Assembly: GCA_017396555.1 (NCBI GenBank)
Contig: JAFQLS010000052.1
Coordinates: forward strand, 1 to 64,000
DNA: 64,000 nt
Reading direction: 5' to 3'
Source of the DNA: Lachnospiraceae bacterium
Lineage (GTDB): Bacteria; Bacillota; Clostridia; Lachnospirales; Lachnospiraceae
This document shows positions 33,960 to 54,220 of this stretch, piece by piece. The notes under the pieces are model-generated. The model worked only from the letters and a program-made list of their open reading frames with translations, ran no database searches and was not told where the DNA came from. Position 1 is the first letter of the stretch. Each line of letters starts with the position of its first letter. A program made the position numbers and the translations under genes.

Positions 33960-34048
33960 AGAGATGATTATAAGGGCAAACATGTAGAGATATATGGACG
34001 CAAAGCTAGGAGTCTTAAGTAATATTACAAAGATAGTTCGGCTGCATT
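33960..34048 (+). ncRNA. Cyclic-di-GMP-I (GEMM) riboswitch
   Basis: The class I c-di-GMP aptamer is recognisable from its conserved blocks in order: AAGGGCAAAC, a hairpin CATGTA-GAGA-TATATG capped by a GNRA tetraloop, GGACGCAAAGCTAGG, then the AGTCTTAAG tetraloop receptor and a 3' arm with GATAG and GGCTGC. This matches the published GEMM-I pattern of GGGCAAAC, GNRA hairpin, ACGCAAAGC and receptor. A terminator hairpin follows at once, with its left arm inside the aptamer's 3' arm. So c-di-GMP binding probably decides between termination and read-through, most likely favouring read-through, though direction is inference. Confidence 0.85.
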
Positions 34049-34076
34049 GATTTGTTTCAGTGCGGTCTTTTTTTAT
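34040..34076 (+). terminator. Riboswitch-controlled intrinsic terminator
   Basis: An 11-pair stem, GGCTGCATTGA (34040-34050) with TCAGTGCGGTC (34057-34067), with three wobble pairs and a 6-base loop, followed by seven T. The left arm overlaps the riboswitch 3' end. Confidence 0.75.
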
Positions 34077-43408: not shown

Positions 43409-44545
43409 CTATCTATTATTTGCAAATCGTTTGGTTTTATGTAATGTTGTATAGTATAAGCTTTCATGAAGCTTGTTTAGAAATTTTTTGCCAATGAAAA
43501 TTAGGCCTATACTAAACAAAGTTATTAATATAAATAAATTAAATTTTGTAAAGTAATCAGTAATCAAGTTAATCAGAAAAATTAAAGGTATTGATATTGC
43601 TACGCCTGATAAGAAGGTAAATTTGTTAAAATTAGATTTAACAAAAGGTGTTGCCCCCACAACCTTGCCGGTTTGTCCATTTACCATCATTGTATAATTT
43701 ATGTCATCATCTGAAAAAGATAGGAACCATACAGGCAATAATGCATAGTAAGCAGATTTTATTTTGTAAGAAGCAACATCATATTCTATTTTAACCTGAA
43801 ATGCTGTGTGAACACTCTGTTTGATTTTACTGTTATACGCCTCCTTAACCATATTCAATACACTGTATTCAGAAGTGTCTTGATCTTCATCATAACAGTC
43901 AGCATAGAAACCTGAGAGATAGCTTATATCAAAATCAACCATTTCTTTACAATTAAATGGAACTAAACGTTCAGAATAGTGATTTTCCAGTTCTTTTGAG
44001 GCGTCAAAGGTAACATTTTTAAAAGAACATTTGCCTCTTCGTCTAAAATAACGGGTTAAGAGTTTCTTTTCTATTATTATTGGAAATTTACCACTTAAGA
44101 GGACTGAACTGGAATAATCAATATCATAAACCCAAAAAGGTACATAGATACCACATACTTTATCAAGTTCAATATTCTTAACACTCTTTTTTGTGTAAAA
44201 GCTTTTCTTGAGTCTTCGGCTAAGTAGCTTCTCCGCCTCTTCCTTTGTAACCTTAAAAGGTATTATTTTCTGTGGTTTAGCCATTGAAGATACTCTGTCA
44301 AATATAATAGTTGGCTGTCCGCAGAAACCACAGAAGGTAGCCGCTTCTACATCATTAACTGTAATCTCAGCACCGCATGTACTGCACTTATATATGTTAA
44401 AATCCATAGTCTCAAGCTGTGACCATAGAGCCTCAGTTATTATACTGTTTGAGTCAAAGCTGGATTTACAGCTTGAACATTTTAAAGACTTATCCTCAAT
44501 GCTATATGTTATTGCGTCGCCGCAATTAGGACATTTACAAATCAT
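43409..44545 (-). CDS. Zinc-ribbon membrane protein, third module (A3)
   Basis: A 378-residue paralogue of A1 and A2. Two N-terminal Cys4 zinc ribbons (MICKCPNCGDAITYSI then LKCSSCKSSF, and CSTCGAEITVNDVEAATFCG then FCGQPT) are followed by a soluble domain of about 230 residues with CGIYVPFWVYDIDYSSSV, HYSERLVPFNC and YLSGFYADCYD, the conserved block MMVNGQTGKVVGATPF, and two C-terminal membrane segments (near 305-325 and 330-348). The C terminus is shorter (KRFANNR) than in the sisters. GGAGG lies before the ATG. These proteins are often labelled PriA-like or TFIIB-type zinc-ribbon proteins; I see no helicase here. Confidence 0.75.
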   Translation of the reverse strand: MICKCPNCGDAITYSIEDKSLKCSSCKSSFDSNSIITEALWSQLETMDFNIYKCSTCGAEITVNDVEAATFCGFCGQPTIIFDRVSSMAKPQKIIPFKVTKEEAEKLLSRRLKKSFYTKKSVKNIELDKVCGIYVPFWVYDIDYSSSVLLSGKFPIIIEKKLLTRYFRRRGKCSFKNVTFDASKELENHYSERLVPFNCKEMVDFDISYLSGFYADCYDEDQDTSEYSVLNMVKEAYNSKIKQSVHTAFQVKIEYDVASYKIKSAYYALLPVWFLSFSDDDINYTMMVNGQTGKVVGATPFVKSNFNKFTFLSGVAISIPLIFLINLITDYFTKFNLFILITLFSIGLIFIGKKFLNKLHESLYYTTLHKTKRFANNR

Positions 44546-44561
44546 AATAGACCTCCATTTA

Positions 44562-44759
44562 CTATTTATAATAAGAATAGGATTTAGATTCTCGTATATG
44601 GTCTTGTCTTTTTAGTACGGAAAGATGTCTTTTAGAAAAATCATAAAATCTTCCTTTTGAATTGCCGTTATCGTGAAGCTTAAACAATATAAATCCCATT
44701 AGTGCATAAGAAGCTCCAAATCCTAAAAAACATCCTATAATTAATGCTATATATGTCAT
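44562..44759 (-). CDS. Small membrane protein, second module (B2)
   Basis: About 65 residues. The start is the ATG at 44759 behind AGGAGG; an in-frame ATG at 44786 lies inside the previous gene. One membrane segment (IALIIGCFLGFGASYALMGF), then KLHDNGNSKGRFYDFSKR, the same block as in B1 and B3, and a Lys/Arg-rich tail. It begins one base after the stop of A2 (TAATATG junction). Function unknown. Confidence 0.7.
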   Translation of the reverse strand: MTYIALIIGCFLGFGASYALMGFILFKLHDNGNSKGRFYDFSKRHLSVLKRQDHIRESKSYSYYK

Positions 44760-44760
44760 A

Positions 44761-45909
44761 TTACTCCTCCTGTCTTTCTTCTGCATATTTATTAATATCT
44801 GAAGCGGTGGTTAAATAAATACTGGTTCGTATTTTATCCCAATATTTAATTCCAAACTTGAAAATAGCTACAATAGCAGCTATAAGTGCGATTAACACTT
44901 CAAAAGTTTTTGAAATATCATCACCGGTAAGAAGTGTTTCCACGAATTTAAAACTAGTCATGGATAACAAACTTCCTAAGACAAGTGTAGGAATAATTAT
45001 TCTTGCTTTTACATATGGTAGAGCACCGATAACTTTACCCGTTTGCCCGTTGACCATTATTGTATAACACTTTTTTTTATCATCCAGAAATGAAAGAAAC
45101 CATACAGGTAATAGTGCATAAGTAACAGAGTTTATCTTATATGTAGGGGAATCTGCTGTTATCGAAACGCTGTGTGCAGGAATGGTTTTTATAACTTCCT
45201 CATTGTATAGTTCTCTTGCATTGTAGGTAGCATCATATTTTCCATATTCTGATGTTACATCATAGCGATCGGCGTAAAAACCTGACAAATAGCCTATATT
45301 AAAATCCTTTGCATCGCTAAAATCATAGGGTTCAAGACGCTGCGAAGACCTGTTATCAAGTCTCTTAGAAGCGTCTACAGTTAAATTGCTGAAACTGCAT
45401 TCACACTCTCTAAAATAATAATATGTACGAGCATCTTTACCATGACCTTCAGTACCTTTTATGGTCTGCTGACTACGATAATCCATATCGTATAGCCAGA
45501 ATGGTACATATATTCCGCAAATTCGTTCTGTCTTAAAATTTCTTAATTTTTTTTTAGTAAAAATACTTTTTCTTAAATATTTGCGAATAGCACGCTCGGC
45601 TTCGTCTCTTGTAACAGAAAAAGGAATTATCTTTTCGGGCTTTTCCCATGAGGAAACCCTGTTAAATACAATAGTTGGCTGACCACAATAACCACAGAAT
45701 GTAGCAGCTTCCACGTCATTAATAGTAAGTTCAGCGCCACAGGTGGTACATTTATATATGTCACACTCCATGGATTCAAACTGTGAATATAGTTCTTCTT
45801 CAATTGTTCCGCTAGGGCTGAATTTACTGTTACAGCTAGGGCATGTAAGAGATTTATTTTCAATACTATATATTAATGCTTTACCGCAATTAGGACATTT
45901 ACAAATCAT
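44761..45909 (-). CDS. Zinc-ribbon membrane protein, second module (A2)
   Basis: About 382 residues. Two Cys4 zinc ribbons (MICKCPNCGKALIYSI, CPSCNSKFSP; CTTCGAELTINDVEAATFCG, YCGQPTIVF), a conserved core (CGIYVPFWLYDMDYRSQQ, SSQRLEPYDFSDAKDF, YLSGFYADRYD), TIMVNGQTGKVIGALPYV and two C-terminal membrane segments. The ATG at 45909 is preceded by GTGGGGGT and overlaps the end of B1 by 11 bases; the frame extends upstream without a ribosome site. Ends KYAEERQEE, next to the A1 end KFAKERQDG. Function unknown. Confidence 0.75.
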   Translation of the reverse strand: MICKCPNCGKALIYSIENKSLTCPSCNSKFSPSGTIEEELYSQFESMECDIYKCTTCGAELTINDVEAATFCGYCGQPTIVFNRVSSWEKPEKIIPFSVTRDEAERAIRKYLRKSIFTKKKLRNFKTERICGIYVPFWLYDMDYRSQQTIKGTEGHGKDARTYYYFRECECSFSNLTVDASKRLDNRSSQRLEPYDFSDAKDFNIGYLSGFYADRYDVTSEYGKYDATYNARELYNEEVIKTIPAHSVSITADSPTYKINSVTYALLPVWFLSFLDDKKKCYTIMVNGQTGKVIGALPYVKARIIIPTLVLGSLLSMTSFKFVETLLTGDDISKTFEVLIALIAAIVAIFKFGIKYWDKIRTSIYLTTASDINKYAEERQEE

Positions 45910-46090
45910 AAAAATTACCCCCACTAACATTGTTTTCTGCGACTTTTATATGTACAGTATTGTCTGCAAAATCTTGAAAGTCTCCTTTTGAATTGCCAAT
46001 GTCATTTGATTTGACAGCAAGGAAACCAACCATGGCATATGCTAGACCAAATCCTATTCCGATTCCTAATATTAAAGGTAATAAAAACAT
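45899..46090 (-). CDS. Small membrane protein, first module (B1)
   Basis: About 63 residues starting at ATG 46090 behind AGGATGG. A membrane segment (FLLPLILGIGIGFGLAYAMV), then VKSNDIGNSKGDFQDFADNT, the block shared with B2 and B3. It starts one base after the A1 stop (TAATATG) and its 3' end overlaps the A2 start by 11 bases, so all three genes are translationally linked. Function unknown. Confidence 0.7.
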   Translation of the reverse strand: MFLLPLILGIGIGFGLAYAMVGFLAVKSNDIGNSKGDFQDFADNTVHIKVAENNVSGGNFYDL

Positions 46091-46091
46091 A

Positions 46092-47234
46092 TTAACCATC
46101 CTGCCTTTCTTTAGCAAATTTGTTAATGGATTCGGCTGTGGTTAGACCGATACTCTTCTTAAGCTTTTTAAATTGCTTAGCTCCATAACTGAAAGAAATA
46201 AAAATTAATACAATATATATAAATAATGATTCTCTGAAATCTTTTGGATGACTATATAAATCGCTTTCTAGAAATTTAATAGCTAATCCAGATAATAATG
46301 TACCAAGAATCATAATAGCTGCTTTTATTTTAAATTTGACATAAGGTACAGCACCAACCGTTTTGCCGGTTTGTCCATTAACCATTATGGTATATCCTTT
46401 ATCTTCGTGAATAAATGACAAGAACCACACCGGTAGCATTGCATAGGTTTCTGAAAGAATTTCATGTGTGGGATTATCTTGTGTTATCTTAACGTTGTCA
46501 GCCGGTACAGATTTAATGACTTCCTGATTAAAAAGTTCTTTAACTTTGTATACAGCAAAGAACTTTTTATCCTGAGATGTACTGTCATAGCAGTCGGCAT
46601 AAAAACCTGACAAATATCCTGCCTCAAAAGGCTTCAGTGCAGTGGTATCAAAGGGCTCTAAACGTTGTGAAGATTCATCCTGAAGTCTTCTGGATGCGTC
46701 AACAGTAACTTTATTAAAAGTACATTCTGAAATTCTGCGATAATAATGCGTTTGTCGATATTTTCCATGTTTAATAGTGCCTCTTAATACCTGATTGCTG
46801 GAATAAAACACGTCATATAACCAAAAAGGAACATATATACCGCAGATACGTTCTGTTTGAAAGTTCTTGACTCCTCCATCGACAAAAAACCCTCTGCGTA
46901 AATGATTACGAATAGCTTCTTCAGCTTGTTCTCTTGTGATAGAAAAGGGTATTATAAATTCTGGCTTTTTTTGAGAAGCAACTCTGTTAAAAATTATGGT
47001 AGGTTGTCCGCAATAAGCACAAAAAGTAGCAGCTTCTACATCATTTACTGCTATTTCCGCACCACAGGTAGTACATGAATATATATCACATTGCATAGTC
47101 TCATATTCGGATATAGTTTCTTCATCTACTGCATCATTTGGATTAAAATTACTATCACATGCAGGACATAAAAGCAGTTGTTCATCAATATTATAGCTTA
47201 ATGCTTCTCCGCAATTAGGACATTTACAAATCAT
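46092..47234 (-). CDS. Zinc-ribbon membrane protein, first module (A1)
   Basis: First gene of the operon, about 380 residues. Two Cys4 zinc ribbons (MICKCPNCGEALSYNI then CPACDSNFNP; CTTCGAEIAVNDVEAATFCA then YCGQPTIIF), a core with CGIYVPFWLYDVFYSSNQ, RLQDESSQRLEPFDTTA and YLSGFYADCYD, the TIMVNGQTGKTVGAVPYV block and two C-terminal membrane segments. AAGGTGAT lies 8 bases upstream of the ATG at 47234, preferred over the GTG at 47246. Ends KFAKERQDG. Likely a membrane-bound zinc protein with its core on the cytoplasmic side. Confidence 0.75.
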   Translation of the reverse strand: MICKCPNCGEALSYNIDEQLLLCPACDSNFNPNDAVDEETISEYETMQCDIYSCTTCGAEIAVNDVEAATFCAYCGQPTIIFNRVASQKKPEFIIPFSITREQAEEAIRNHLRRGFFVDGGVKNFQTERICGIYVPFWLYDVFYSSNQVLRGTIKHGKYRQTHYYRRISECTFNKVTVDASRRLQDESSQRLEPFDTTALKPFEAGYLSGFYADCYDSTSQDKKFFAVYKVKELFNQEVIKSVPADNVKITQDNPTHEILSETYAMLPVWFLSFIHEDKGYTIMVNGQTGKTVGAVPYVKFKIKAAIMILGTLLSGLAIKFLESDLYSHPKDFRESLFIYIVLIFISFSYGAKQFKKLKKSIGLTTAESINKFAKERQDG

Positions 47235-47316
47235 TTTAAGAATCACCTTTTCTAAAAATAAACTAGTATAATCTTATCATATAAACAAATAATTGTAAAT
47301 TTTTATTATAAACTAG

Positions 47317-47345
47317 TTGACTTTGTTGGTTTAAAGTGCTATTAT
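47317..47345 (+). promoter_or_regulatory. Promoter of the aromatic amino-acid operon
   Basis: TTGACT (47317-47322), a 17-base spacer, TATTAT (47340-47345). It drives the leader that codes the Phe/Tyr peptide. Confidence 0.75.
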
Positions 47346-47381
47346 AGTGACTATCAAAAAATTATGAAGGAGGCAGTTAAA

Positions 47382-47459
47382 ATGAAAAACAATAAATTTT
47401 ATTACTTTTATTACTTTTTTAATAAGGACTGCCCGGCTTCAATGATGTTCAAAGATTAG
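47382..47459 (+). CDS. Leader peptide of the aromatic operon (25 residues)
   Basis: ATG at 47382 behind AAGGAGG opens MKNNKFYYFYYFFNKDCPAS and ends TAG at 47457. Residues 6-13 (47397-47420) are eight aromatic codons in a row: Phe, Tyr, Tyr, Phe, Tyr, Tyr, Phe, Phe. This is the classic shape of an attenuation leader. Ribosomes stall at these codons when charged tRNA-Phe or tRNA-Tyr is scarce. It lies 111 bases before the DAHP synthase gene and overlaps the antiterminator arm. The protein itself has no expected function. Confidence 0.85.
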   Translation: MKNNKFYYFYYFFNKDCPASMMFKD

Positions 47460-47532
47460 ATTCTTTGAATTGAATAAAAACGGACAGTCCGAATTTGATG
47501 TACTATTTGGTACACAAATCGGACTTTTTTTA
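47426..47532 (+). promoter_or_regulatory. Phe/Tyr attenuator: antiterminator and terminator stems
   Basis: Three pairing segments are visible. Segment 2, GGACTGCCCG (47426-47435), lies in the leader peptide's 3' half. Segment 3, CGGACAGTCC (47481-47490), pairs with segment 2 (nine of ten bases). The same segment starts the terminator arm AGTCCGAATTTGATGTAC (47486-47503), which pairs with GTACACAAATCGGACT (47510-47525), followed by seven T. A small hairpin TTCAAAGA/TCTTTGAA (47448-47469) covers the leader stop. Stalling on the Phe/Tyr codons should free segment 2 and let the operon be read; fast translation should allow termination. Confidence 0.85.
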
Positions 47533-47570
47533 TTCCTTAAATAAAAAATAAGAAAAGAGAGGTATTTATT

Positions 47571-48599
47571 ATGAGAATGAATTTTAAGAGAAAGCTTCCA
47601 ATTCCACAGGAGGTTAAAAAAGAATTTGCATTAACTGAAAAAATGGTACAGGTAAAGGAAAATAGAGATTACGAGATAAGAAGCGTATTTGAAGGACAGC
47701 TTGATAAATTTATCCTTATTATAGGACCATGTTCTGCTGATCAGAGTGAACCTGTTCTTGAATATATTTCCCGTCTTCGTAAGATAGAGGATCAGGTTTC
47801 AGACAAGATGATAATTATTCCTCGTATATACACCAATAAGCCAAGAACTACAGGTCAGGGATATAAAGGAATGTTACATCAGCCGGATCCTAATGCTGAA
47901 CCGGATATGTACAAAGGTATTGTCGCAATTAGAGAATTACATTTAGCAGCGCTTAGAGACTACGATTTTTCATGTGCGGATGAAATGTTATATCCTGAAA
48001 ATTACAGATATCTTTCAGACCTTCTTTCATATGTTGCAATTGGTGCCCGTTCGGTTGAAAATCAGCAACACAGATTAACAGCTAGTGGAATTGAGGTGCC
48101 GGTTGGAATGAAGAATCCTACAGGTGGAGACTTAAGTGTTATGATGAATTCTATAGTAGCTGCACAGTCAAGCCATACATTTTTATATCGTGGCTGGGAA
48201 GTTACAAGCAAGGGTAATCCTTGGTCACATGCAATTCTTAGAGGCTATATTGATTACACGGGTAAGAGTACATCAAATTACCATTACGAAGACCTTGTTC
48301 AGGTAAATGAATTGTATGCAAAGTCAGGACTTGCAAATCCTTCTGTTATTGTTGATACAAATCACAACAATTCAGGAAAACAATATCTTGAACAGGTGCG
48401 TATTGCAAAGGATATCGTTCATAGCCGCAATCAGAATCCGGATATCAAGAAGCTTGTAAAGGGCTTGATGATTGAGAGTTATCTTGAGGATGGTGCTCAG
48501 GGTATAGGAGAAAATGTTTTTGGAAAATCTATCACAGACCCTTGTCTTGGATGGGAAAAGACAGAAAGCCTTATTTTCGATATTGCTGATAAACTATAA
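47571..48599 (+). CDS. aroF: 3-Deoxy-7-phosphoheptulonate synthase (DAHP synthase)
   Basis: First enzyme of the shikimate pathway, joining phosphoenolpyruvate and erythrose 4-phosphate. It is the class I type: FILIIGPCSADQ, IYTNKPRTTGQGYKGM, SVENQQHRLTASGIEVPVGM, KNPTGGDLSVM and VIVDTNHNNSGKQY hold the substrate and metal residues. At 342 residues it matches AroF/G/H-type enzymes, which are feedback-inhibited by Phe or Tyr. First gene after the attenuator; the ATG at 47571 has GAGAGG upstream. Which amino acid inhibits it cannot be read from the sequence. Confidence 0.93.
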   Translation: MRMNFKRKLPIPQEVKKEFALTEKMVQVKENRDYEIRSVFEGQLDKFILIIGPCSADQSEPVLEYISRLRKIEDQVSDKMIIIPRIYTNKPRTTGQGYKGMLHQPDPNAEPDMYKGIVAIRELHLAALRDYDFSCADEMLYPENYRYLSDLLSYVAIGARSVENQQHRLTASGIEVPVGMKNPTGGDLSVMMNSIVAAQSSHTFLYRGWEVTSKGNPWSHAILRGYIDYTGKSTSNYHYEDLVQVNELYAKSGLANPSVIVDTNHNNSGKQYLEQVRIAKDIVHSRNQNPDIKKLVKGLMIESYLEDGAQGIGENVFGKSITDPCLGWEKTESLIFDIADKL

Positions 48600-48630: not shown

Positions 48631-49719
48631 ATGAGTGAACTTCAAAATGCAAGAGAAATAATTAACAAAGTTGATAAAGAAATGGCGCGTTTATTCGAAA
48701 TCCGTATGGATGCGGCTAAAGAGGTTGCAAAATACAAAAAAGAAAACGGCTTACCGATTGATGATTTTGTGAGAGAAAATGAAATAATAAAAAGAAATTC
48801 AAATTATATAGAGAATGAAGAATATCGCTCTTATTATGTGAATTTTTTAAAGAAGAATATTAAGCTGTCTAAAGATTTGCAGCATCGTCTTCTTGAAGGA
48901 ATGACGGTTGCATATAGTGGTGTGGAAGGTGCATTTGCGAATGTTGCAGCTCGCCGTATATTTCCGGATGCAAGATGCATTCCTTATGCCGATTTTAAAG
49001 CGGCATACAGAGCTGTAGAGAAAGGAGAATGTGATTGTGTAATTCTTCCTATCGAGAATAGTTTTAATGGTGATGTAGGAAATGTTTTAGATCTTGCATT
49101 CTTTGGTTCGCTATACATAAATGGTGTATATGAGGCTGAAATTGTTCAAAATCTTCTCGGAGTTAAGGGAGCAAGGATTTCGGATATTAAAAAAGTAATC
49201 AGTCATCCACAGGCACTTGGGCAATGTGCCACTTATATTGATAACCATGGTTTTGAAAGTGAAGATGCTGTAAATACTGCGATTGCAGCTAAAATGGTTG
49301 CCGAAATGAGTGATAAAAGTATAGCGGCTATTGGCAGCGCAGAAGCGGCACAACAATTTGGTTTACAAATAATATCAGAGAAAATAAATGATAGTGGAAC
49401 CAATACAACCAGATTTGCAATTTTTTCACGTTCAAACAGAACACCTCAACAGGGTGATGAGAGATTTATTATGATGTTTACAGTTAAAAACGCTGCCGGT
49501 TCCCTTGGTGAAGCGATATCTGTTATAGGAAAGTACGGCTTTAACCTTAGGGCTTTAAAAAGCCGTCCAACTAAGGAGCTTGTATGGGATTATTTCTTTT
49601 ACGTTGAAGGTGAAGGAAATATTAACAGTCAAGAGGGTGAGGCTATGTTGGAACAGTTGAAGGATTGTTGTTCAAATTTGAAAATTGCGGGTTCCTATGA
49701 AAAGGAAATACATATTTAA
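48631..49719 (+). CDS. pheA: Chorismate mutase/prephenate dehydratase (P-protein)
   Basis: Bifunctional enzyme of Phe synthesis. The N-terminal AroQ-type chorismate mutase domain (ARLFEIRMDAAKEVAKYKKE, about 1-90) is followed by prephenate dehydratase (VAYSGVEGAFANVAARRIFP, then IENSFNGDVGNVLDL and NTTRFAIFSR, the catalytic TRF motif) and an ACT domain (AAGSLGEAISVIGKYGFNLR) that binds Phe for feedback control. At 362 residues it is normal for a P-protein. It starts 31 bases after aroF. Confidence 0.94.
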   Translation: MSELQNAREIINKVDKEMARLFEIRMDAAKEVAKYKKENGLPIDDFVRENEIIKRNSNYIENEEYRSYYVNFLKKNIKLSKDLQHRLLEGMTVAYSGVEGAFANVAARRIFPDARCIPYADFKAAYRAVEKGECDCVILPIENSFNGDVGNVLDLAFFGSLYINGVYEAEIVQNLLGVKGARISDIKKVISHPQALGQCATYIDNHGFESEDAVNTAIAAKMVAEMSDKSIAAIGSAEAAQQFGLQIISEKINDSGTNTTRFAIFSRSNRTPQQGDERFIMMFTVKNAAGSLGEAISVIGKYGFNLRALKSRPTKELVWDYFFYVEGEGNINSQEGEAMLEQLKDCCSNLKIAGSYEKEIHI

Positions 49720-49734
49720 GAGGCGGTGAATAGA

Positions 49735-51273
49735 ATGATTATTCCAGTAAAAACACAAAATGGTTCATATAATATTTACCTTGAGAGAGGTGCATTATCC
49801 AAGGCCGGAGAATATTTTAAGCTTGACAGAAAGGTTCTTATAGTTACGGATTCAGGTGTTCCGGTCGAGTATGCAAAAACAGTAGCCAAATGTTGTAAGA
49901 TTCCTGTTATAGTTACCATAGAAATGGGTGAAAGGTCTAAGAATATGGATACATTTAAGGAGCTGCTTGGTTATATGGTTGAAAATAATTTTACCCGTAC
50001 AGACTGTGTCGTAGCAGTTGGTGGTGGAGTAGTAGGTGACCTTAGTGGATTTGTTGCATCAACATTTATGCGAGGCGTGGATTTTTACAATATTCCAACG
50101 ACGATGCTTTCACAGGTGGATTCTTCCATAGGTGGAAAAACAGCAATTGATTTTATGGGATATAAAAATATTGTGGGTGCATTTTATCCGCCAATGGGAG
50201 TGTTGATTGACCCGGATACATTGAAGACACTTCCAAAACGCCAGTTGTCAAATGGACTTGCGGAGGCTTTAAAGATGTCTGCAACAAGTGATAAAGACCT
50301 TTTTGCAATATTTGAAAATGATGATATAGAAGCTAGTATTGATACCATTATTGAACGCTCTCTTCGTATTAAAAAATATGTGGTTGAGGAGGATGAGAAG
50401 GAAGCCGGACTTAGAAAAATTTTGAATTTTGGTCATACGCTTGCACATGCAATTGAGAGTGCAAATGACCTTGAAAAATATTATCACGGTGAATGTGTAG
50501 GAATAGGTATGCTTCCTATGTGTGATTATAAGGTGAGAGAAAGACTTTTACCTGTTCTAAAAAAGCTTCAATTACCTACAAATACAGAGTATACAATAGA
50601 TGATTTGCTTGAAGCATGCAGGCATGATAAGAAAGCATCGGGAGATACTATTACTATTGTATATGTTTCTGAAATTGGAAATGCAGAGTTAAAAAATATG
50701 AGCTTTGAGGAATACGAAGATTTAGTGCGGGAGGGTTTAGAATTTGATCCGAATTATCGTGAAACCGTAAACTTAAAGCAAAATATTGTTTTAACCGGAA
50801 TGCCTGGAAGTGGAAAGACAACTATCGGAAAACTAATTGCAGAAGAAACAGGGATGAAATTTATTGATACAGACGAAGAAATAGTTAAAAGAGAAAATAA
50901 AACGATTCCTGAGATATTTGAAGAGAGTGGTGAAAAAGGATTCCGTAAGATTGAAACTGAGGTAATAGCAGACATATCAGTTGTAGAAAATGCAGTTATT
51001 TCTACCGGTGGAGGAGCAATACTTAATAAGACTAATATAGATATGCTTAGGGAAAATGGAAGAATTTATTTTATTGACAGAGCACTTGAAGATATAGTTG
51101 CAACCTCTGACAGACCTTTATCAAGTAACAGAACTGACCTTGAAAAGAGATATTCAGAGAGATATGAGTTATATTGTTCAAGATGTGACAAACAAATAAA
51201 GATTAGTAATGAAGCTTATTCAAATATGAAAATAATTTTAGAGGACTTTTATGATGAAAATACTTGTGATTAA
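49735..51273 (+). CDS. aroB: Fused 3-dehydroquinate synthase/shikimate kinase (AroB-AroK)
   Basis: A single protein of 512 residues. The N-terminal 345 residues are AroB (VVAVGGGVVGDLSGF, IPTTMLSQVDSSIGGKTAID, NFGHTLAHAIES). The C-terminal 165 are AroK (VLTGMPGSGKTTIGKLIAEE with the P-loop, FIDTDEEIVKRENK, ISTGGGA). The join is short and the frame is open throughout. In most bacteria aroK and aroB are separate, so the fusion would link steps two and five of the pathway. The ATG at 49735 is chosen behind GAGGCGG; a GTG at 49726 is in frame but lies inside that site. Confidence 0.92.
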   Translation: MIIPVKTQNGSYNIYLERGALSKAGEYFKLDRKVLIVTDSGVPVEYAKTVAKCCKIPVIVTIEMGERSKNMDTFKELLGYMVENNFTRTDCVVAVGGGVVGDLSGFVASTFMRGVDFYNIPTTMLSQVDSSIGGKTAIDFMGYKNIVGAFYPPMGVLIDPDTLKTLPKRQLSNGLAEALKMSATSDKDLFAIFENDDIEASIDTIIERSLRIKKYVVEEDEKEAGLRKILNFGHTLAHAIESANDLEKYYHGECVGIGMLPMCDYKVRERLLPVLKKLQLPTNTEYTIDDLLEACRHDKKASGDTITIVYVSEIGNAELKNMSFEEYEDLVREGLEFDPNYRETVNLKQNIVLTGMPGSGKTTIGKLIAEETGMKFIDTDEEIVKRENKTIPEIFEESGEKGFRKIETEVIADISVVENAVISTGGGAILNKTNIDMLRENGRIYFIDRALEDIVATSDRPLSSNRTDLEKRYSERYELYCSRCDKQIKISNEAYSNMKIILEDFYDENTCD

Positions 51274-51682
51274 CGGACCAAATCTTAACATGCTCGGTAT
51301 CAGAGAACCAGATCATTATGGCAGAGAGACATATGCTGATCTTGTAAAAAAAATTAATAATTATTGTGAATTAAAGGGAATAGAGGTAAAACTATTTCAG
51401 TCAAATCACGAAGGGGCACTTGTTGATGAAATTCAAAATGCATATGGAAATATTGATGGAATTGTTATTAATCCAGGTGCGTATACACATACAAGTATAG
51501 CTATATTAGATGCTGTAAAATCAGTGAACATTCCAACCGTTGAGGTTCATATTTCAAAGGTTGAGGAACGTGAAGAATTCAGACAGATAAGTTATGTGCG
51601 ACTTGCCTGTGTAAAAACTATTACAGGTCATGGAACAGATGGCTATCTTGAAGCTATTGATTATTTAGTTGGGAGCAAATAG
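51251..51682 (+). CDS. aroQ: 3-Dehydroquinate dehydratase, type II
   Basis: Third enzyme of the shikimate pathway. ILVINGPNLNMLGIREPDHY, FQSNHEGALVDEIQ, INPGAYTHTSIAILDA and VEVHISKVEEREEFR are the type II signature; the catalytic Tyr (Y in DHYGR) and His (H in NHEG and VEVHIS) are present. At 143 residues it is normal length. The start overlaps the end of the aroB-aroK gene by 23 bases and uses GAGGA. Confidence 0.95.
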   Translation: MMKILVINGPNLNMLGIREPDHYGRETYADLVKKINNYCELKGIEVKLFQSNHEGALVDEIQNAYGNIDGIVINPGAYTHTSIAILDAVKSVNIPTVEVHISKVEEREEFRQISYVRLACVKTITGHGTDGYLEAIDYLVGSK

Positions 51683-51683
51683 T

Positions 51684-52886
51684 ATGAAGGCAGTATTCAA
51701 ACCTAGTAAACTTAATGGAACCATATCAGCGCCACCTTCAAAAAGTATGGCACACAGATACTTAATTGGTGCAGCTCTGTCTGGTCAAAAATGTATTTTG
51801 TCAGGTGTTGACTATAGTGAAGATATACTTGCAAGTATTGATTGTTTAAAGGCACTTGGGGCTGAAATAACAGCTGAAAAAGATACTGTAATTGTAGAGT
51901 CTTGCGATTTTATGAAGGCAAAAAATCCCGTATTAGAATGTAGGGAAAGTGGGAGCACTCTTAGATTTTTTATCCCGCTTGCATTATGTATGGGGAATGA
52001 GGTTGTTTTAAATGGAAGTGAGAGACTTTTGGAGAGACCTCTTGGTGTCTACGAGGAGCTGTGCAGTGAAAATGGCTTTAAGTTTGATAAGAATAAAAAT
52101 AGTGTAACAGTTTGTGGAAATCTTAAGAGTGGAAATTATAAGCTCAGAGGTGATATAAGCAGTCAGTTTATTACAGGATTAATTTTTGCCCTTATTTATC
52201 TTAATGAGGATAGCGAGATTGAAATTATCCCGCCCTTTGAAAGCAGGTCTTATATTAATTTAACAATCAGTGCGTTAAAATCCTTTGGTGCAGATATTGA
52301 ATTTATGGATGAATACAAAATTGCGATTAAGAAGTCAGAGTTAAATGCTTTTTCGGGAAGAATTGAAGGTGATTATTCTAATGCAGCATTTCTTGATGCA
52401 TTTAATTATATAGGTTCGAATGTAAATATATCTAATTTAAACCCTTATAGCTTGCAGGGTGACAGGGTTTATGCAGAATATTTTGAACAAATTTCAAAGG
52501 GAGTACCGACTCTTGATATTTCTGATTGCCCGGATTTGGGACCGATTTTATTTGCTCTTGCCGCAATGAAAAATGGGGCTGTATTTACAGGAACTAACAG
52601 GCTTAAGGCAAAAGAAAGTGACAGAGGTCAGGCTATGTATGACGAGCTTAAGAAGCTTGGAGTTGAGTTAGAAATACGTGATAATTCTATTATTGTGCCC
52701 AAGCAGAAGCTTGAGTTTAATGGAGAGATTCTTGACGCTCATAACGACCATAGAATTGTTATGTCGATGTCGGTTATTTTATCAGAAATTGGCGGAGAAA
52801 TTGAAGGAGTACAGGCGGTAAGAAAGAGTTATCCGGGATTTTTTGAGGATATAAAGGAACTTGGAGCAAAGGTGGAATTAATATGA
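51684..52886 (+). CDS. aroA: EPSP synthase (3-phosphoshikimate 1-carboxyvinyltransferase)
   Basis: Sixth enzyme of the pathway, joining shikimate 3-phosphate and phosphoenolpyruvate. APPSKSMAHRYLIGAALSG, ECRESGSTLRFFIPLAL, LRGDISSQFITGLIFAL, EGDYSNAAF and NRLKAKESDRGQAMYDE are active-site blocks. About 400 residues, slightly short of typical 430. The ATG at 51684 is chosen: it begins the conserved FKPSKLNGTISAP region and follows the aroQ stop by one base. GGGAGC is upstream. Confidence 0.93.
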   Translation: MKAVFKPSKLNGTISAPPSKSMAHRYLIGAALSGQKCILSGVDYSEDILASIDCLKALGAEITAEKDTVIVESCDFMKAKNPVLECRESGSTLRFFIPLALCMGNEVVLNGSERLLERPLGVYEELCSENGFKFDKNKNSVTVCGNLKSGNYKLRGDISSQFITGLIFALIYLNEDSEIEIIPPFESRSYINLTISALKSFGADIEFMDEYKIAIKKSELNAFSGRIEGDYSNAAFLDAFNYIGSNVNISNLNPYSLQGDRVYAEYFEQISKGVPTLDISDCPDLGPILFALAAMKNGAVFTGTNRLKAKESDRGQAMYDELKKLGVELEIRDNSIIVPKQKLEFNGEILDAHNDHRIVMSMSVILSEIGGEIEGVQAVRKSYPGFFEDIKELGAKVELI

Positions 52887-53740
52887 TAGTTGATATAAGA
52901 AAAAGAATACTGATAGTTGGATTAGGACTTTTGGGTGGCAGCTATGCAAAGGTATTGAAAAGATTTGGGTTTCATATCAGTGCTATAACCAAGGAGCAAG
53001 GTTCGATAGATTATGCAATTAAAGAAAACATTATAGATGACGGTTCAACGGAGCTTGATAAGGAATTGATAGGAAATGCAGATATTGTTATATTTGCATT
53101 ATATCCTCATGTGTTTGTGGAATGGATTGAGGAGAACCAGAGCCTTCTTAAAAGCGGAGCACTTATAACAGACGTTACCGGTGTTAAAGGAAGTATTGTG
53201 TATAAGATTCAGGATATGCTTCGTCCGGATGTTGAGTTTATTGCAGCTCACCCAATGGCAGGACGCGAAGTGTCGGGCGTTGAAAATAGCTCTGATAAGA
53301 TATTTATTGGAGCAAACTATATTGTAACGCCTACTGAAAAAAATACGGAGGAAGCCATTGAAACCTGTATGGAGCTTGGCAGACTTCTTGGTTTTTCAAA
53401 TGTAACTACACTTTCACCGAAAGAGCATGACGAAATGATTGGTTTCCTTTCACAGCTTACACATTGCATTGCAATTACATTAATGACCTGCAATGACAAA
53501 GAAGATATGGAAAAATTTACGGGTGATTCATTTAGAGACCTCACACGTATCGCTCGTATAAATGACCTTATGTGGAGTGAATTGTTTGTTGCAAATAAGC
53601 AGGCACTTTTAGAGCAGATGAATTTATTTATGGATAAGTTTAAAGAATTAAAAACTATGCTTGAGGAAGAGGATATTGACGGTATGAGAAAAATGATGCG
53701 CCATTCGACAGAAAGACGTGCGTTATTTGATAAGAAATAG
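52883..53740 (+). CDS. tyrA: Prephenate dehydrogenase
   Basis: Makes 4-hydroxyphenylpyruvate for Tyr synthesis with NAD. RILIVGLGLLGGSYAKVL is the dinucleotide site, HPMAGREVSGVENS the substrate region with the catalytic His in FLSQLTHCIAITLM. At 285 residues it lacks the C-terminal ACT domain that many TyrA have. The start overlaps the aroA stop by four bases (ATGA), so the two are coupled. It closes the pathway from DAHP to Phe and Tyr inside one operon. Confidence 0.93.
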   Translation: MIVDIRKRILIVGLGLLGGSYAKVLKRFGFHISAITKEQGSIDYAIKENIIDDGSTELDKELIGNADIVIFALYPHVFVEWIEENQSLLKSGALITDVTGVKGSIVYKIQDMLRPDVEFIAAHPMAGREVSGVENSSDKIFIGANYIVTPTEKNTEEAIETCMELGRLLGFSNVTTLSPKEHDEMIGFLSQLTHCIAITLMTCNDKEDMEKFTGDSFRDLTRIARINDLMWSELFVANKQALLEQMNLFMDKFKELKTMLEEEDIDGMRKMMRHSTERRALFDKK

Positions 53741-53755
53741 GTAGGGATTGAAATT

Positions 53756-54220
53756 ATGATTCGAAGAGCTAAAGAAAAGGACATTTATAAAATTGGAGAT
53801 TTGTTATCTCAGGTTGATTTAGTGCATCACAATGGCAGACCGGATATTTTTAAAATTGGCAGGAAATACTCTGATGAGGAGCTAAAAGAGCTTTTGGAGG
53901 ATGAGAAGCGCCCGATACTTGTAGCCGTAGATGAAAATGACGAGGTAATGGGATATTGCTTCTGCATTTACCAACAGCATTTTGATAATTCGGTTCTTAC
54001 GGACATCAAGACTTTATATATTGATGACCTTTGCGTGGATGAGAAACTACGTGGCAAACATATCGGCAGGGAATTATATGAGGCAGCAGTTAAGCTTGCA
54101 AAAGACAATGCTTGCTACAATCTTACACTTAATGTGTGGAGCTGTAATCCATCTGCCATGCGTTTCTATGAGGCATGCGGTTTGATTCCACAGAAGGTGG
54201 GAATGGAATTGATATTGTAA
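53756..54220 (+). CDS. GNAT-family N-acetyltransferase
   Basis: A 154-residue GNAT protein. The acetyl-CoA site is LCVDEKLRGKHIGRELYEAA (with the RGKHIGREL loop), preceded by EVMGYCFCIYQQ and followed by NVWSCNPSAMRFYEACGL. It follows tyrA by 15 bases and may be a trailing gene of the aromatic operon. The substrate is unknown. Confidence 0.88.
   Translation: MIRRAKEKDIYKIGDLLSQVDLVHHNGRPDIFKIGRKYSDEELKELLEDEKRPILVAVDENDEVMGYCFCIYQQHFDNSVLTDIKTLYIDDLCVDEKLRGKHIGRELYEAAVKLAKDNACYNLTLNVWSCNPSAMRFYEACGLIPQKVGMELIL

Follow-up and report, generated by a model that had tools for sequence, protein, structure and literature searches.

A probable ribosome-mediated transcription attenuator with a mixed Phe/Tyr codon run in front of aromatic amino acid genes of gut Clostridia

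In gut Clostridia, genes for aromatic amino acids are usually regarded as T-box territory. In a 64,000-nucleotide stretch of DNA from a Lachnospiraceae bacterium (assembly GCA_017396555.1, contig JAFQLS010000052.1; "the window"), a first-pass annotation had described a different arrangement, namely a leader with eight consecutive Phe/Tyr codons, a segment able to pair with the left arm of a strong terminator, and a seven-T tract, all placed between a promoter and the gene for DAHP synthase (DAHPS). This raises the question of how such a leader acts and which amino acids it reads. The T-box model RF00230 has no match in the window and none in the leader at E values up to 5; elsewhere in the same genome, seven T-box matches are found at E ≤ 0.001 (four of them over the cut-off), hence, this genome did not lack the T-box as a tool. 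The described elements were all recovered between 47317 and 47531 (+) from sequence and folding, together with a 1:2 hairpin that covers the SD of the leader (Table 1).

Table 1. Coordinates of the leader and the downstream genes in the window, and of leaders in tandem at four other loci
Feature	Positions	Strand	Basis
Promoter TTGACT-17-TATTAT, TG before −10, score 10/12	47317–47345	+	promoter scan
Segment 1 with SD AAGGAGG (47367–47373), forming the 5' arm of P1 (1:2 hairpin)	47361–47378	+	folding, pair counts, arm-swap test
Leader ORF, 25 codons + stop (ATG 47382, TAG 47457–47459)	47382–47459	+	sequence; codon phase in 48 leaders
Eight consecutive Phe/Tyr codons F-Y-Y-F-Y-Y-F-F, putative stall zone	47397–47420	+	sequence, codon statistics
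Segment 2, antiterminator 5' arm GGACTGCCCG	47426–47435	+	folding, swap test, pair counts
Stop-codon hairpin of the leader, inside the antiterminator loop	47447–47470	+	folding; arm-swap test (38/48 leaders)
Segment 3, antiterminator 3' arm	47481–47490	+	folding, pair counts
Terminator hairpin (3:4), −19.1 kcal/mol, z −5.0	47486–47525	+	folding, pair counts
Seven-T tract	47525–47531	+	sequence
DAHP synthase (type I, aroFGH), first structural gene	47571–48599	+	NCBIfam
Chorismate mutase/prephenate dehydratase (pheA)	48631–49719	+	NCBIfam
aroB-aroK fusion (3-dehydroquinate synthase + shikimate kinase)	49726–51273	+	NCBIfam
aroQ, type II 3-dehydroquinate dehydratase	51251–51682	+	NCBIfam
aroA, EPSP synthase	51669–52886	+	NCBIfam
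tyrA, prephenate dehydrogenase	52883–53740	+	NCBIfam
Leaders in tandem, locus L059	2592–2956		
Leaders in tandem, locus L060	682–1037		
Leaders in tandem, locus L075	786–1152		
Leaders in tandem, locus L090	2575–2952		

Behind the leader, seven proteins are encoded between 47571 and 54220, the six aromatic ones and then a GNAT protein (NCBIfam). Since AroE and AroC are missing among these seven, the operon is not complete, and its earlier designation as a "complete" aromatic operon was overstated. The GNAT acetyltransferase gene (53756–54220) lies directly 3' of tyrA and is possibly part of the operon. On the minus strand, three successive ORFs of 378–389 aa (43409–47246) have, by eye, the look of paralogues arranged in tandem that carry CxxC motifs at their N termini and membrane segments, and the last of them starts adjoining the leader promoter. 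The window also contains a c-di-GMP-I riboswitch (33965–34049, +; 66 bits).

Promoter-like sites number eight in the 1.2 kb region versus 5.5 ± 2.3 in shuffles, so that the site in the window, taken alone, is weak evidence. Across 48 aligned leaders, a site scoring at least 9 (out of 12, with half a point for TG) is present in 42, compared with 30 of 240 letter-shuffled controls. The end of the −10 element is most commonly found 33 nt before the ATG (11 leaders), from which the RNA would begin roughly where P1 opens.

By direct reading, the leader peptide is MKNNKFYYFYYFFNKDCPASMMFKD, with the aromatic run encoded as TTT TAT TAC TTT TAT TAC TTT TTT. This is the sole run of at least six F/Y/W codons in the six frames of the whole window, and dinucleotide shuffling of the plus strand of the intergenic region produced a run of eight once in 5000 trials. 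In the aromatic clusters of the 48 leaders, 356 of the 371 codons begin with T, the second position is divided between T (182) and A (180), and the third is T in 267 and C in 96. This codon phase suggests that the SD-bearing ORF between promoter and intrinsic terminator is translated, its run being made up of codons for the end products of the operon. Counted over 47 leaders (a pattern miss removed L093 from the codon counts and the arm-swap test), the clusters contain 177 Phe, 166 Tyr and, unlike a trp attenuator, 0 Trp codons; within the first 16 codons, both Phe and Tyr occur in all 48 leaders and Trp in none. The clusters span 6–11 codons, starting at codon 6 in 31 of 47 leaders; in 39 of 47, their end lies 5 nt upstream of segment 2. 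Behind the run, a KGCP peptide is recognisably conserved. In three of the 48 leaders (L037, L077 and L096; hand-corrected), segment 2 stands in another reading frame, which argues that it is kept as RNA and not as peptide. Among more diverged copies, the run holds Phe without Tyr in L054 and L122, and is mostly Tyr in L123 (FFYYYYYYF) and L124 (FYFYYYYF).

Folding yields the two exclusive structures that the first-pass annotation had anticipated. The whole leader (47350–47535) reaches −51.1 kcal/mol versus −27.1 ± 3.7 in 200 shuffles (z −6.4), and its minimum-energy structure consists of the terminator and of P1, in which 47361–47378 pair with 47427–47446. When segment 1 is omitted (47421–47535), much as a ribosome in the run would keep it away, the minimum, at −32.8 kcal/mol, is the antiterminator, i.e., segments 2 and 3 paired with one mismatch (C47432/A47484); the centroid still shows the terminator. 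P1 and the terminator are mutually compatible and the antiterminator excludes both, sharing 47427–47433 with the 3' arm of P1 and 47486–47490 with the 5' arm of the terminator. A simple terminator scan of the leader region in the window listed no terminator, presumably because its loop/stem rule is unsuited to the bulged stem. In all 48 leaders, a hairpin of −16 to −28 kcal/mol precedes a T-rich tract, which is poor in L042.

Comparative support for these helices comes from two alignments. A1 comprises 48 leaders, of which 46 stem from the best 80 of 271 relatives, the others being the window and L003 (genome G174 of the same family); A2 comprises 70 copies aligned to a model with P1 and the terminator and without the antiterminator, leaving out L146 (same leader as L144) and L118 (apparently the same contig as L081). 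The antiterminator and the terminator covary clearly, P1 less so. In A1, 88.7% of the cells are paired in the antiterminator, 91.6% in the terminator and 79.6% in P1, compared with at most 41.2%, 48.5% and 52.1%, respectively, when the partner is slid by 1–3 columns. Both sides are changed in 7 of the 10 pairs of the antiterminator and in 8 of the 10 of the terminator, each matched by 0 of 500 shuffles, and in 11 of 15 P1 pairs, a value reached by 18 of 500 shuffles; these controls, like the arm swaps below, leave shared ancestry in. The covarying pairs for which the first-pass annotation had asked are thus present in the two stems among relatives. In A2, built without it, the antiterminator is 87.3% paired with 8 of 10 pairs doubly changed (0/500 shuffles), its covariation score being equalled by 12 of 500 shuffles. 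From A1, RNAalifold recovered the antiterminator and no other helix. Among the helices, P1 stands weakest. One of its pairs is not formed in 28 of the 46 leaders, its register shifts between species, and it has 22 doubly changed cells, fewer than the 24–30 obtained after sliding the partner by +1 to +3 columns. When arms were swapped between species (47 of 48 leaders), permutations as good as the true partners numbered 0 for P1, 3 for the antiterminator and 0 for the terminator in 20,000 each, and likewise 0 in 20,000 for the stop-codon hairpin, for which the 38 of 48 leaders with a stop 25–36 nt after the start of segment 2 were used.

The seventh position of the antiterminator (A1 columns 87/154) is a conserved mismatch, C-A in 38 of the 48 leaders and no standard pair in 42; it is U-U in L151 and L152, whose stems otherwise differ. 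Pairing segments have changed jointly in the diverged copies L069, L084, L124, L151 and L152, in L069 affecting segments 2, 3 and 4 together (by eye). In the terminator, conservation appears by eye to be higher in the left arm (about GCATTYGYYRTGC, A1 columns about 161–175) than in the arm with which it pairs. A self-hairpin within the left arm was considered as the cause and rejected, since by eye it fails in the window, L049 and L084.

The distribution of the leader is patchy and, to judge by record titles, centred on uncultured gut Clostridia. Among the best 80 of 271 relatives, peptide scan and inspection placed it before DAHPS at 46 loci, to which a covariance model added L054 and L062 (48/80); L044 and L024, with 14 and 57 nt of upstream sequence, are too short to judge. 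A sample of 200 genomes from the family gave a DAHPS match in 174, and at 29 inspected family loci besides that of the window the leader stands directly before DAHPS in L003 only. Covariance model R1 had matches in 5 of 397 family genomes (three accepted: G000, G174 and G188), in 2 of 295 genomes of the order (one accepted, the window's own) and in 7 of 391 genomes of the class, where all eight matches were accepted; with model R2, the one genome to match among 398 of the phylum was the window's own. These genome samples overlap, and the stricter filters of the large searches lose weak matches. In the families of three class matches, the counts are 2 of 4, 2 of 13 and 1 of 16 genomes. Of 50 genomes scanned among the 80 behind the loci, 29 had a match, comprising every one of the 16 in which a leader was already known and 13 of the other 34; one of these 13, the genome of L089, carries the leader already known from L066. 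Leader and DAHPS also occur on SUWN01000048.1 (L084), with altered and still complementary segments, in a metagenome-assembled genome (MAG) labelled Treponema bryantii (Spirochaetota), which may reflect a transfer or a misbinned contig.

The genes behind the leader belong to Phe/Tyr synthesis or to a TrpX-like transporter and match Phe and Tyr. In A2, 54 of 70 copies (50 loci) precede DAHPS, six precede pheA (L115, L121, L122, L144, L145 and L062, the last with the order pheA-tyrA-DAHPS), eight precede a class I aminotransferase gene followed by a chorismate mutase gene (L120, L147–L153), and two an ABC transporter (L123, L124); family models were used for these assignments in L148 and L149 (aminotransferase), L122 (pheA), and L123 and L124 (transporter), the others being made by eye. 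At four of the DAHPS loci, two complete leaders, each with its own aromatic run and terminator, are arranged in tandem (Table 1). The transporter binding protein is PF04392 in both cases; that of L123 scores 305 bits with the TrpX model, below the cut-off of 390 bits, and the nearest PDB entries of that of L124 are 6hni, 3lft and 3lkv, the last of which we take to be VC_1101. According to PMC6816091, 6HNI is CD0873 with Tyr bound, 3LFT (SP1069) contains Trp, and VC_1101, the third structure of the same paper, contains Phe. Loss of a Clostridioides difficile ABC transporter is described in PMC5951980 as accompanied by lower uptake of Tyr and Phe.

Three covariance-model matches were rejected by eye because of their context: G115/L114 before a nusG-like gene, G015/L116 before a gene for an MBOAT-like membrane protein, and G639/L117 with no ORF of 80 codons downstream. 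Since their scores (33.1–36.4 bits with R1, 36.8–38.4 with R2) overlap with those of the five weakest accepted copies (L115, L123, L124, L152 and L153; 31.9–37.1 bits), score alone fails to separate the two groups, and these five were accepted on leader peptide, structure and downstream gene.

At leaderless loci, the T-box comes into play. The peptide scan had left 34 loci (among the best 80 of 271) with no leader, and 20 of these were surveyed: a T-box ends 43–115 nt before DAHPS in seven (L046, L050, L055, L071, L082, L083 and L086), four have a T-box followed by a phenylacetate-CoA-ligase-like gene, a gene for an ACT-like protein, and DAHPS (L040, L061, L068 and L089; names by eye), and no T-box was found in nine. 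The specifier, taken at position 85–87 of the T-box match as we presume the rule to be, is TTC (Phe) in 11 of 11; L012 has TAC. On the DAHPS tree, leader and T-box are interspersed, with six changes of the leader label, at least three of them forced by well-supported branches (bootstrap unsettled), and the T-box label clusters no more strongly than shuffled labels (122 of 500 as low). The leader-bearing L081 is sister to the T-box loci L082 and L083 with support 100/88 (bootstrap unsettled), whose genomes carry the leader before pheA instead. At L042, a T-box (604–853) lies about 2 kb upstream of the Phe/Tyr leader (2791–2965). L066 and L089, both of isolate RGIG6370, represent two DAHPS genes of one MAG, one behind the Phe/Tyr leader and the other behind a Phe T-box with the CoA-ligase-like and ACT-like proteins. 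Switches between T-box and leader peptide were described earlier for hisS, according to PMC2965389.

From the ORF, the phase-true run, the antiterminator with the two helices that it excludes, the comparative support, and the match of the downstream genes, we infer translation, stalling, the switch itself, and the action of both amino acids; the leader is very probably a ribosome-mediated transcription attenuator sensing charged tRNA-Phe and tRNA-Tyr. Transcription would start immediately upstream of segment 1. If Phe and Tyr are plentiful, the first ribosome would clear the aromatic run and leave the leader, upon which segments 1 and 2 could pair, hiding the leader SD, and segment 3 would be free for segment 4, so that the 3:4 terminator would halt RNA polymerase ahead of aroF. 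A shortage of Phe-tRNA or Tyr-tRNA would make the ribosome stall in the run, occupy the P1 loop and block P1; segment 2 would then capture segment 3, with the stop hairpin in the loop of the resulting antiterminator, and the operon would be transcribed. Without translation, P1 should form and termination be the default. Going by the usual footprint of a ribosome, an early stall in the run would leave segment 2 free, and a stall at the last codons would cover part of it. A ribosome at the stop codon in the window would not cover segment 2, which lies 22–31 nt upstream; therefore, P1 would have to re-form before segment 3 emerges, a kinetic requirement of the scheme that weighs against it.

It is plausible that Tyr is sensed as well as Phe, and we lean, by a modest degree, towards a two-amino-acid OR gate, in which shortage of either Phe-tRNA or Tyr-tRNA leads to readthrough; this gate would constitute a cross-species regulon (DAHPS, pheA, aminotransferase-pheA, and the TrpX-like transporter), occurring in tandem at four loci and exchanged several times with Phe T-boxes in close relatives, its input changing between Phe alone and Phe plus Tyr. 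The same attenuator might conceivably respond in practice to limiting Phe only, with Tyr codons kept through the coupled synthesis of Tyr and Phe or as TAY breaks in slippery T runs, a reading which we regard as tentative. T-boxes at the same place read TTC for Phe, the runs of L054 and L122 manage without Tyr, and AroR of Corynebacterium glutamicum, with its Phe-Tyr-Phe, is said in a review (PMC11802643, after Neshat et al. 2014) to respond to Phe and not to Tyr; mixed codons are, therefore, no guarantee of dual reading. However, the numbers of Tyr and Phe codons are similar, both kinds occur in every close leader, some runs are mostly Tyr (L123, L124), and the transporter protein of L124 has the Tyr-bound CD0873 nearest to it in the PDB.

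Readings in which the codons would not be what is sensed have to contend with the freedom of the peptide and the joint changes of the RNA. An arrest peptide that detects free Phe or Tyr from within the exit tunnel, comparable to TnaC and Trp, would account for the recognisable conservation of the peptide including KGCP, but the order of F and Y is freely shuffled within clusters of 6–11 codons and KGCP is lost through frame change in 3 of 48 leaders with the RNA kept; given this free order and the frame changes tolerated in the C-terminal part, we reject it as the main reading and consider it very improbable. We give equally little credence to a riboswitch for a ligand or a leader recognised by a protein, in either of which the ORF would be incidental; such a reading would agree with the very high sequence conservation of segments 2 and 3 and with the conservation bias of the terminator towards its left arm, which pairing alone does not explain (by eye). 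Yet the pairing segments change together in the diverged copies, the codon phase is conserved, and for the leader in the window, in L003 and at 20 further leader-bearing loci no family of Rfam 15, including Phe_leader (presumably RF01859), reached its gathering score. Least credible of all is a constitutive partial terminator with a chance ORF; the strong terminator alone would indeed lower expression, but a run such as this is a one-in-5000 event in shuffles, and it is conserved in phase before genes of one pathway. The first-pass observation is confirmed and its interpretation as attenuation largely supported; the 1:2 hairpin, the stop-codon hairpin, the other leader-bearing genes, the tandem copies and the exchange with T-boxes go beyond it.

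The leader peptides PheL and PheM of Escherichia coli contain Phe runs without Tyr. A T-box, which reads tRNA directly, resembles the leader in standing at the same place before DAHPS in seven relatives, in serving the same amino acid and in controlling termination; in contrast to the leader, the Phe T-box (RF00230) is about 250 nt long. Attenuation of pheA and pheST in E. coli, as summarised in PMC11802643, is similar in that pheL-pheA and pheM-pheST combine a peptide rich in the regulated amino acid, an exclusive antiterminator/terminator pair and an operon of Phe synthesis. In the same review, C. glutamicum aroR-aroF likewise has its Phe-Tyr-Phe leader before an operon with a DAHPS gene; by this description, it differs in belonging to an Actinobacterium and in having Phe-Tyr-Phe instead of a cluster of 6–11 codons. 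The uORFC-13-1 motif, as described in PMC8632094, lies upstream of aroF with a uORF whose U run codes for Phe, adjoins a terminator and has a possible promoter within the motif; again by description, its 24 representatives come from Acholeplasma and environmental sequences, and at least one Phe residue stands against the mixed run of the window. No family named uORFC-13-1 is found among the Rfam matches of the window and the leader. The His leader of hisS/hisZ in bacilli and the Leu attenuator of ilvD in Staphylococcus aureus, as described in PMC2965389 and PMC5794164, are codon-reading attenuators which replace T-boxes in Gram-positive bacteria as well, but for other amino acids and genes. 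Among the listed titles and passages of open-licence PMC papers, no description of this leader was found. As no Rfam 15 family matched, we regard the leader as a new RNA family that belongs to a familiar type, ribosome-mediated attenuation of the classical sort, with uORFC-13-1 as a possible relative.

The leader, thus, adds an RNA family to the gut Clostridia, documented by 70 aligned copies with natural compensatory changes. Since close relatives carry either a Phe T-box or the Phe/Tyr leader before the same gene, they provide a natural comparison of two RNA sensors with one and the same task, and through them it can be cleanly tested whether a single leader reads two amino acids.
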